Origin: a virus
Length of the DNA: 25,549 nucleotides
Direction: 5' to 3' (one strand)
Virus record (IMG/VR): IMGVR_UViG_3300044644_001414
Span: 1-25,549 of that record
Shown piece after piece: positions 7,118-23,584 of the stretch. The position numbers and the translations under genes are program-made. Every line of letters begins with the position of its first letter. Position 1 is the first letter of the stretch. Under the pieces are notes generated by a model, which was not told the DNA's origin, did no database searches, and saw only the letters and a program-made list of their open reading frames with translations.

Positions 7118-7732
7118 ATGACACCAACCACAATTGAAGAACTCCTTGATTACTGGCCTGGCCACATTCCTTTCAAGGGAAGTCTTGTAAACGAAGACGG
7201 CTCCTGCATGTGCGCCCAAGGCCAAGCGTTGCATTTCCTGAGCGGGCTAACCGCTGATGAATTGCGAGACCTTGATCAAGAAATGGCCGACAAGCGGGTA
7301 GCTGAACTGTTTGGAATTAGCTTTGCTCATTCAGTATTGCTAAGGATTGTGAACGACGGGCAAGAAGGTGCGCCTTCTAGCGTGATTCGCAATCCCGAAC
7401 ACGTTTTAGGAGATCAAGCGCAAACCGTGCTTGCTTTTTGGCGACACCTTGATCGCATGACACCAGCGGCCGTGGCAGCGGCCTGGGAAGCGGCCAGGGT
7501 AGCGGCCAGGGTAGCGGCCTGGGAAGCGGCCAGGGAAGCGGCCAGGGTAGCGGCCTGGGAAGCGGCCAGGGAAGCGGCCTGGGTGGCGGCCGGGGCCACC
7601 AATGAGATTCAAGGTGCCACTGTTATGCGAGCCAAAAATCAGCCGTTTTTCTTCCTGCCGCTTTTTGGTTTTGCAGATCCTGAAGCAGTTATGCGGCTGG
7701 ATGCGGCTGGGGAGGGGGAGGTGCAGGCATGA
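7118..7732 (+). CDS. Ala/Trp tetrapeptide-repeat protein, 204 aa
   Basis: N-terminal domain (TIEELLDYWPGHIPFKG ... CMCAQGQALHFLSGLT ... FGISFAHSVLLRIVND), then eleven AAxx tetrapeptides (residues 117-160, pattern AAWE, AARV, AARE), then a conserved-looking tail IQGATVMRAKNQPFFFLPLFGF. I recall phage and bacterial proteins that join Ala/Trp repeats to such a PFFFLPLFGF tail; their function is unknown. Start at ATG 7118 is chosen because it follows the predicted transcript start and a CACCTACACTCATATCC leader. The repeats would form a long amphipathic helix. Confidence 0.75.
   Translation: MTPTTIEELLDYWPGHIPFKGSLVNEDGSCMCAQGQALHFLSGLTADELRDLDQEMADKRVAELFGISFAHSVLLRIVNDGQEGAPSSVIRNPEHVLGDQAQTVLAFWRHLDRMTPAAVAAAWEAARVAARVAAWEAAREAARVAAWEAAREAAWVAAGATNEIQGATVMRAKNQPFFFLPLFGFADPEAVMRLDAAGEGEVQA
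7466..7597 (+). repeat. Eleven 12-nt tandem repeats in coding sequence
   Basis: Units follow GCGGCC(T/A)GGG(A/T)A, with a divergent first unit (GCGGCCGTGGCA) and last unit (GCGGCCGGGGCC). Each encodes Ala-Ala-x-x in the host gene. Being in frame and nearly identical, copy number could vary by slippage without breaking the gene. Confidence 0.9.
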
Positions 7733-10010: not shown

Positions 10011-10919
10011 ATGACAAATACTGAAATCAAAATGGTTTCCATCCCGGCGGGCTCTTTCCTGATGGGCTCACCTGACAATGAAATCGGGCGATTTGCCGAT
10101 GAAGGCCCGCAGCGTCAGGTGACCTTGGCTGGTTTTCAGATGAGTCAAACGCCAATTACTCAGGCCCAGTGGCAATCGGTGATGGGCGGCAACCCTTCAT
10201 GGTCTGATGATCAAGCCGACAGCGATCAAAGGCCAGTCGAGTGTGTTAGCTGGTACGACGCCATCGAGTTTTGCAGGCTTTTGAGTGAACGCACTGGCTG
10301 TCTTTACACGCTGCCAAGTGAAGCGCAATGGGAATACGCCTGTCGGGCGGGAACTGTAACACGATATGCCTTTGGTGACGAAATCACTACCGATCAGGCC
10401 AATTACAACTACTGCTTTGAACGGACCACTCCGGTTGGGAAATTTCCCGCCAACGCCTGGGGACTGTGCGATATGCACGGAAATGTGTGGGAATGGTGCT
10501 TGGACGACTGGCACAGCAGTTACGAGGGAGCGCCAACGGATGGCAGCGCATGGACGGAGGATGACAGTGCAAAAAAGTCCTGCGCGGCGGCTCGTGGAGC
10601 GACCACCCCAGGTGCTGCCGCTCGGCCTGCCACAACCTCCGCCACCCGGACTCCCGCAACAACGACTTCGGTTTCCGCGTCTGTTGCTAATCGCTTGAAG
10701 CTGCTGCGCGGCGGCTCGTGGGCCTACCACCCCGGGCTCTGCCGCTCGGCCGCCCGCTACCACCGCCCCCCGGACGCCCGCGGCAACATCATCGGTTTCC
10801 GCGTCTGTTGCCTCCCCCAGGACCCTGCCGTCAACTCTCAATCCATCAATCCCTCGGCTTGGGTATGCCTGTCTCAGGCAGCCCTGCGAACTATCCAAAG
10901 TCTTTTTCTGAAACGATGA
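10011..10919 (+). CDS. FGE-fold DGR variable protein, unshifted 302-aa form
   Basis: The N-terminal 189 residues are a formylglycine-generating-enzyme/SUMF1-type domain (C-type-lectin-like fold): MVSIPAGSFLMGS, CVSWYDAIEFC, LPSEAQWEYACRAGT and WGLCDMHGNVWEWC. This fold is the usual scaffold for DGR targets in cyanobacteria. In the unshifted frame it continues through a 42-residue Ala/Thr/Ser/Pro-rich linker (190-231), a variable module LRGGSW...GFRVCC (232-267) and a 35-residue tail. A -1 shift at 10571-10577 instead gives 226 residues ending in the first variable module, stop TAA 10688-10690. No signal peptide. Probably a ligand-binding display protein; the partner is unknown. A lost A in the run is the simple alternative. 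Confidence 0.85.
   Translation: MTNTEIKMVSIPAGSFLMGSPDNEIGRFADEGPQRQVTLAGFQMSQTPITQAQWQSVMGGNPSWSDDQADSDQRPVECVSWYDAIEFCRLLSERTGCLYTLPSEAQWEYACRAGTVTRYAFGDEITTDQANYNYCFERTTPVGKFPANAWGLCDMHGNVWEWCLDDWHSSYEGAPTDGSAWTEDDSAKKSCAAARGATTPGAAARPATTSATRTPATTTSVSASVANRLKLLRGGSWAYHPGLCRSAARYHRPPDARGNIIGFRVCCLPQDPAVNSQSINPSAWVCLSQAALRTIQSLFLKR
10556..10577 (+). promoter_or_regulatory. Candidate -1 ribosomal frameshift signal
   Basis: Slippery heptamer A AAA AAG (10571-10577), read GCA AAA AAG in the zero frame, with GGAGG (10556-10560) 10 nt upstream: the same heptamer and spacing as E. coli dnaX. Six nt downstream GCGGC (10584-10588) can pair with GCCGC (10617-10621), enclosing a small GTGG/CCAC hairpin. 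The downstream structure is only moderately convincing. Confidence 0.6.
10580..10687 (+). repeat. Variable repeat 1 of a DGR target
   Basis: 108 nt encoding LRGGSWSDHPRCCRSA...GFRVCC in the -1 frame, followed directly by TAA. Compared with the second copy it has 18 substitutions in 13 codons, none at a third position, with constant blocks at both ends. This matches adenine-directed mutagenesis from a template whose variable codons are AAC. Confidence 0.85.
10704..10811 (+). repeat. Variable repeat 2 of a DGR target
   Basis: 108 nt, 124 nt downstream of copy 1, hence in another frame; here in the zero frame, encoding LRGGSWAYHPGLCRSA...GFRVCC. It has only one AAC codon, so it is a second variable copy and not the template. 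A six-pair hairpin (10866-10880, TCT loop) lies 54 nt downstream, possibly related to the homing signal of DGRs. Confidence 0.85.
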
Positions 10920-17292: not shown

Positions 17293-17473
17293 TCCAGGCT
17301 GGACATTACAGCCGGCCAGTGGGGTTAGTTTACAGGAAGCCGCAGAGTTCACTGTTACTTTTCGCTAACTTCGCAGCGGCTTTGACTTGCATACAGGAAG
17401 CCCGCGTGCTATAATCGGCACAGCTGGAGAGGTTGTATCTTCAGCTCATTCTACACTTTACACCCTACGTCTT
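17293..17473 (+). promoter_or_regulatory. Promoter and hairpin leader, copy 1
   Basis: Extended -10 TGC-TATAAT (17410-17415) preceded by ATACAGGAAG. Expected start near 17422, where AGCTGGAGA (17422-17430) pairs with TCTTCAGCT (17438-17446) around loop GGTTGTA: nine pairs, one G-U. Upstream, AAGCCGC/GCGGCTT flank about 32 nt, and GTCCA-GGC-TGGAC follows the previous gene, so transcription may end there. The leader then runs CTACACTTTACACCC to ATG 17474. Confidence 0.75.
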
Positions 17474-19663: not shown

Positions 19664-19741
19664 ATCAAGCTTTGCAGGTTATGGCCGGTCGGAGTCCACA
19701 GCTTTGGCCGGCTTCTTACTGGCAGATCAGCAGCAACTTCA

Positions 19742-19859
19742 CTGTTAAGCATTGTTTATCTTACAGGATTTTCACTGGCTTACAGGAAACGTGTGTGCTA
19801 TAATACGGGTGCTGGAGAGGTTGTAGCCAAACCAGCGTTTTACCTTACAGGTTACAGCT
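19742..19859 (+). promoter_or_regulatory. Promoter and hairpin leader, copy 2
   Basis: 85 nt (19742-19826) match 23467-23551 at 72 positions without gaps. Extended -10 TGC-TATAAT (19799-19804) with CTTACAGG upstream. GCTGG (19811-19815) pairs with CCAGC (19832-19836) from the expected start. Then TTACCTTACAGGTTACAGCT leads to ATG 19860. Confidence 0.78.
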
Positions 19860-23382: not shown

Positions 23383-23584
23383 AGGTTGCACTTTATACGT
23401 TGTAACTATCACGCACCTTGCGGCGTGGTGGCGGCAAGTTTGATGGCAAAAGCGGCCCAGAGCTAACTGTTAAGCGTTGTTTATCTTACAGCGTTTTCGG
23501 TAGCTTACAGGCAAGTTGCGTGCTATAATACGGGAGTCGGAGAGGTTGTAGGCTTCTCCGCCGCCCACCTTACACTTTACAGTC
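23383..23584 (+). promoter_or_regulatory. Promoter and hairpin leader, copy 3
   Basis: 85-nt cassette (23467-23551) shared with 19742-19826. Extended -10 TGC-TATAAT (23524-23529). CGGAGAG (23538-23544) pairs with TTCTCCG (23554-23560), seven pairs with one G-U, loop GTTGTAGGC. Then CCACCTTACACTTTACAGTC runs to an ATG at 23585 that is followed at once by TAG. 23383-23466 has only small imperfect hairpins. Confidence 0.78.

Follow-up and report, generated by a model that had tools for sequence, protein, structure and literature searches.

How does a single phage gene come to carry two hypervariable repeats that are read in different frames, and could both of them reach the protein? The question arises from IMG/VR record IMGVR_UViG_3300044644_001414, of which positions 1 to 25,549 (25,549 nt, referred to here as the window) were analyzed. 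The window contains phage-like DNA-metabolism genes, encoding SSB, a MazG-type pyrophosphohydrolase, a dNMP kinase, and an exonuclease, and the virus family possessing the type of gene described below appears to have freshwater cyanobacteria as hosts. In the related records, a terminase large subunit gene adjoins the variable repeat (VR) locus in contigs L001 and L019, terminase matches lie within the same record in L003, L016, and others, and genes for a minor tail protein and for helicases lie on the phage contig L011; such phage hallmarks were seen in part of the fragments, not in every one. Two further elements of the window were recorded in passing. Repeated elements with a common GTGCTATAAT core, which are probably phage promoters, occur at 17381-17415, 19741-19826, and 23466-23551, and ORF-internal 12-nt tandem repeats at 7453-7607 encode a helix-like W-E-A-A-R-E/V-A-A repeat.

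Two variable repeats behind one FGE-fold body

The gene and its repeats are located as follows.
10011..10919, plus strand: zero-frame ORF, starting with the ATG at 10011, 302 aa
10580..10687, plus strand: VR1, out of the body frame by -1, LRGGSWSDHPRCCRSACHNLRHPDSRNNDFGFRVCC
10704..10811, plus strand: VR2, in the same frame as the body, LRGGSWAYHPGLCRSAARYHRPPDARGNIIGFRVCC
10578..10703, plus strand: VR1 region in the zero frame, a stop-free linker, SCAAARGATTPGAAARPATTSATRTPATTTSVSASVANRLKL

The zero-frame ORF thus encodes, in this order, an FGE-fold body, a P/A/T/S-rich linker corresponding to VR1 read out of frame, and the in-frame VR2, an arrangement that can be aligned with nine related phages. 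The body matches Pfam FGE-sulfatase (PF03781, 9e-55), and profile and Foldseek matches assign it the fold of PvdO, of formylglycine-generating enzymes, and of the DGR protein TvpA (2y3c). A structure model of the zero-frame product reached a pLDDT of 36 and was uninformative, and that of a relative with an in-frame VR reached 66, enough only for confirming the FGE/TvpA fold. Because TvpA and other DGR targets have such a function, we infer by analogy that the products of this gene serve in binding.

A first-pass annotation, made from the sequence alone, had reported two 108-nt copies with 18 base differences over 13 codons and none at a third position, which is exact: 10 differences fall on first, 8 on second, and 0 on third codon positions. 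Likewise, both copies have a final C in 12 of the 13 differing codons, seven AAC codons result when every differing site is set to A, and the two copies do lie in different frames, the body being in frame with VR2 and VR1 in -1, with 124 nt from start to start. The differences between VR1 and VR2 coincide with inferred A sites in 16 of 18 cases, with 2 elsewhere. Chance does not account for this pattern: a set of 52 distinct related copies, all from phage contigs, varies in the same codons and nearly always where the template would have A. The variable codons in these 52 copies are of the types NNC, TNC, CNC, GNC, NGG, or NTC, the remainder being nearly fixed, and the template deduced from them has AAC codons. 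Most of these VRs end in a constant GGTTTCCGCGTCTGTTGC, a candidate IMH site. The 52-copy pattern, together with a host template repeat (TR) with which VR1 and VR2 agree at 77/80 non-A sites, supports the earlier reading of both copies as DGR variable repeats in an FGE-fold gene.

Comparisons between phages indicate that each VR can be rewritten independently. In L016, VR1 and VR2 are identical at 78/78 non-A sites and different at 21/27 A sites. Between L009 and L025, the upstream bodies are about 97% identical and VR1 is the same, and the VR2 copies share only 30% identity at A sites vs 97% at non-A sites. Judged by this phage-vs-phage comparison, diversification of the VRs appears to be ongoing.

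A candidate -1 frameshift signal ahead of VR1

The region between the body and the end of VR1 holds the following features.
10556..10560, plus strand: GGAGG, Shine-Dalgarno (SD)-like, exactly 10 nt 5′ of the slippery heptamer
10571..10577, plus strand: slippery heptamer A_AAA_AAG, in zero-frame phase
10580..10625, plus strand: predicted RNA stem-loop (RNAfold, -25.9 kcal/mol)
10688..10690, plus strand: TAA, -1 frame stop directly 3′ of VR1, read from the sequence

In the body frame the junction reads GC A AAA AAG TCC, and a -1 slip on A_AAA_AAG would bring the ribosome into GTC CTG CGC GGC (VLRGGSW). The window therefore combines a zero-frame heptamer with both an SD-like element upstream and a predicted stem downstream. 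The pairing energy of GGAGG with the anti-SD sequence is -9.5 kcal/mol. The predicted stem-loop begins 2-6 nt 3′ of the heptamer, with constant VR segments pairing and variable codons in the loop; in the window it is only mildly better than shuffled sequences (z of -0.9; the 20 sites have a mean z of -1.5), and it is not independent evidence, because the TR dictates its segments anyway.

On these grounds we consider it likely that a programmed -1 frameshift selects which DGR-hypervariable C terminus is joined to the one body. A slip at A_AAA_AAG (10571-10577) would connect the FGE-fold body directly to VR1 and end translation at the TAA at 10688, giving a predicted product of 226 aa, whereas without a slip VR1 would be read in its +1 frame as the P/A/T/S-rich linker and the protein would end in VR2. 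The internal SD 10 nt upstream and the stem-loop, formed by constant, non-mutable parts of VR1, would act as stimulators. The model supposes that the shift does take place, at whatever rate, and that both products fold. Nearly all mutable template codons have C in the third position, and NNC codons of VR1 become NCN in the body frame and CNN in the remaining frame, neither of which can be a stop. Hypermutation of VR1 hence cannot terminate the read-through product; an NNC-type TR would keep that frame stop-free whatever the adenines become, leaving the other product unbroken. Since both alternative frames are stop-free, avoidance of stops does not explain a strict preference for -1, which points to frameshifting.

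That preference was evaluated across relatives. The out-of-frame set comprised all such VRs that the related contigs hold, 20 in number and distributed over 16 genes and 15 contigs, and the in-frame set 38 VRs, namely VR2 copies, VRs of single-VR phage genes, and those of host genes. All 20 out-of-frame VRs lie in -1 and none in +1, and a heptamer in zero-frame phase is found 12-27 nt 5′ of the VR in 20/20 out-of-frame vs 0/38 in-frame cases. The nominal Fisher p of about 5e-16 for the association between heptamer and frame would hold for independent loci; because these loci share ancestry, both this value and the counts overstate its strength. The heptamers are G_GGA_AAG at 13 sites, G_GGG_GAG at 6, and A_AAA_AAG at 1; 14/20 are thus classical, and the other 6/20, G_GGG_GAG, do not conform to the classical X_XXY_YYZ but allow a G_GGG tetramer slip, which is probably weaker. 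GGA makes up 9% of the Gly codons elsewhere in the bodies yet is present at 13/13 G_GGA_AAG sites, and 2372 body codons contain just one further heptamer in zero phase; this codon choice supports selection at the slip sites. Of the 19 sites outside the window, 14 have an SD-like element at a distance of about 9-10 nt on the 5′ side; at the remaining five, those of L024, it is weak (AGGA) or absent. In the related genes, too, the -1 frame holds a VR module that would complete the FGE domain and is followed by a nearby stop, 0-4 codons past the C-terminal motif. A conserved -1 frameshift signal would thus explain the arrangement of VR1 and VR2 in two frames, which the first-pass annotation had noted without recognizing the signal. 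Searches of IMG/VR for additional loci gave five matches to the slip-site pattern (L225-L229), which were rejected as chance matches, and no further loci with the AAAAAAG pattern; L210 was likewise dismissed as a chance match to a VR 3′ end.

The same comparison bears on two other sources of a frame change. An error of sequencing or assembly, or a pseudogene, might be suspected from the six-A homopolymer at the junction of a single metagenome contig, but the -1 relation recurs in 16 genes on 15 contigs with differing junctions and with spacings in two-copy genes of 124, 127, or 130 nt, all 1 mod 3, so that we regard this explanation as scarcely credible. Slippage of RNA polymerase rather than of the ribosome would draw on homopolymers such as the run of six A in the window or the run of five G in six relatives; the longest run at 13/20 sites, GGGAAAG, is three, however, and an SD at about 10 nt suits a ribosomal mechanism, which makes polymerase slippage highly improbable.

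A more serious alternative is that VR1 is an untranslated leftover of a tandem duplication, tolerated as a linker or as a reserve for recombination, with VR2 as the sole expressed surface. The duplication is real and copy number does change, as L014 and L015 show 100% identity along 6.2 kb of downstream sequence and L015 has one extra 127-nt unit (a unit may have been gained or lost, or the assembly may be at fault). Moreover, retrohoming alone could keep VR1 intact without translation. A leftover, though, fails to predict an in-phase heptamer at every out-of-frame VR, its absence at in-frame VRs, and the -1 stop. It also conflicts with L019, whose single VR lies in -1 behind a slip site and would then never be made; the tail of this gene is that found 3′ of VR2 elsewhere, as though the two repeats had recombined and left a gene with a VR that needs the frameshift. 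We therefore judge the leftover explanation distinctly unlikely and retain the programmed frameshift, for which the sequence evidence is strong, as the preferred reading.

Two other relatives illustrate the range of architectures. L012 has one in-frame VR and a slip site decayed to CTG AGA AAG. In L024, five out-of-frame VRs follow one another. Every one of them has a CTGGGAAAG and a -1 stop of its own, and CTG GGA AAG, read in the body frame, stands before each. The body frame stays open across all five and leads into a final in-frame VR without a slip site. If slipping takes place at each junction, genes with 2-6 modules would yield a graded mixture of independently evolving surfaces, diversified by the RT and template of a host DGR, an extension for which we see about even chances.

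Several further arrangements were observed. At L024:7560-7600, a seventh VR starts at a stop-start overlap (TGATATG) past the in-frame VR, perhaps through reinitiation. The order is reversed in L020 (5827-7017), L021, L034, and L038, where two to four in-frame VRs are N-terminal to an FGE body that has no C-terminal VR; these VR units often have their own ATG and might provide alternative starts. L082:469-1700 encodes one N-terminal VR joined to a body, then four VR units in two frames with no evident slip site.

Source of the diversifying machinery

The search for a template and a reverse transcriptase (RT), by which the first-pass annotation would have its DGR reading judged, came out differently for phages and hosts. 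The window and 40 related virus records, ranging up to 277 kb, gave no match to RT (RVT_1), and a strict TR pattern had no match in IMG/VR. A looser pattern, applied to 17 records, matched L202 only and detected no TR in the phage records with a VR pair. Cyanobium-family genomes, by contrast, possess RT, Avd, and TR, and the template pattern deduced above is common in cyanobacteria. In Cyanobium sp. Cruz CV13-4-11 the order is FGE target, Avd, RT, TR, and second FGE target, with Avd scoring above the cut-off of NF033474. A close TR pattern occurs in 5/400 Cyanobium-family genomes. On the contig G289 (3,046 bases), an FGE target, TR, RT, and Avd lie together, identified from gene order and from their resemblance to the Cyanobium locus. 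The TR of this contig is the closest found: of 80 non-A sites, 77 are shared with the window VRs (3 mismatches) and all 80 with the VR of phage L011.

Because picocyanobacteria have complete DGRs, and one of their TRs shows this close match to phage VRs, host DGRs probably act in trans on the phage genes. A-specific mutagenic retrohoming would then rewrite VR1 and VR2, the TR being most likely that of the cyanobacterial host. Trans action of a DGR inside one genome has been proposed earlier (PMC10907252). As an alternative, compatible with the frameshift, RT and TR could reside in missing parts of the phage genome: none of the records is known to be complete, many being fragments, and the phage contig L202 carries a TR-like copy. 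We consider this unlikely, given the absence of RVT_1 matches from the 40 additional virus records (up to 277 kb) and the agreement of a picocyanobacterial TR with a phage VR at all 80 non-A sites.

The host VRs that were read are single, and the exact pattern found no tandem VRs in the chromosomes of 400 Cyanobium-family genomes. Three individual loci deserve mention in their own right. At L202:348-887, a single ORF lacking an FGE body contains both a TR-like, Asn-rich copy and a VR-like one, in a record without RT; the phage may here carry a template on which the host enzyme could act. L123:994-1563, minus strand, is a host FGE target gene whose VR is frame-disrupted partway, near a shortened TR. 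L009:2142-3110 encodes a RecT-like annealing protein in the same phage as a VR locus, which, speculatively, might aid cDNA insertion.

Relation to known systems

A survey from 2020 reported DGRs to be absent from Synechococcus and Prochlorococcus genomes (PMC7517822); the loci described here bring picocyanobacteria into the DGR field and make phage exploitation of a host-encoded DGR testable. If the proposed frameshift holds true, it links two recoding strategies known apart, targeted DNA hypermutation and programmed mRNA frameshifting, and one gene could keep a tested variant while exploring a new one, in a ratio set by the ribosome.

FGE-type DGR targets, such as Treponema TvpA and those of cyanobacteria, share with the present gene the FGE fold, A-specific C-terminal variation within RGGSW...GFR, NNC template codons, and a host RT, Avd, and TR. 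Unlike them, the genes described here have two to six VRs per body, all but one out of frame and each of these preceded by a slip signal, and RT and TR were not found in the phage records. The first-pass annotation had called two VRs per gene unusual. They are indeed rare, but not unprecedented: one DGR serves several VRs, sometimes in one ORF, among the multi-VR DGRs known from the DiGReF survey, from a Marichromatium ORF with three tandem FGE-VR paralogs, and from the triple CLec targets of Thiohalocapsa (PMC3521204, PMC10907252). In those cases the repeats span whole FGE or CLec domains, and their descriptions mention neither a change of frame nor a frameshift site. Our search, largely without subscription journals and preprints, found no published frameshift that chooses among VRs. 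The Quimbyvirus DGR likewise pairs a DGR with predicted programmed frameshifts (PMC8008677), but there the RT is frameshifted, and neither the target nor the choice of VR is affected.

Parallels to the proposed junction come from frameshifting in E. coli and phage lambda. The dnaX gene of E. coli has the same combination of an internal SD upstream, A_AAA_AAG, a downstream stem-loop, and a shorter frameshift product (PMC6787027, PMC4066793), and A_AAA_AAG is among the three most efficient heptamers in this organism (PMC4066793). Lambda G/GT is likewise a phage -1 frameshift that yields two products in a set ratio (PMC5009743). However, the shift in dnaX only truncates the protein and that in lambda G/GT adds a constant assembly domain, whereas the shift proposed here would choose between variable domains, swapping one hypervariable C-terminal module for another.
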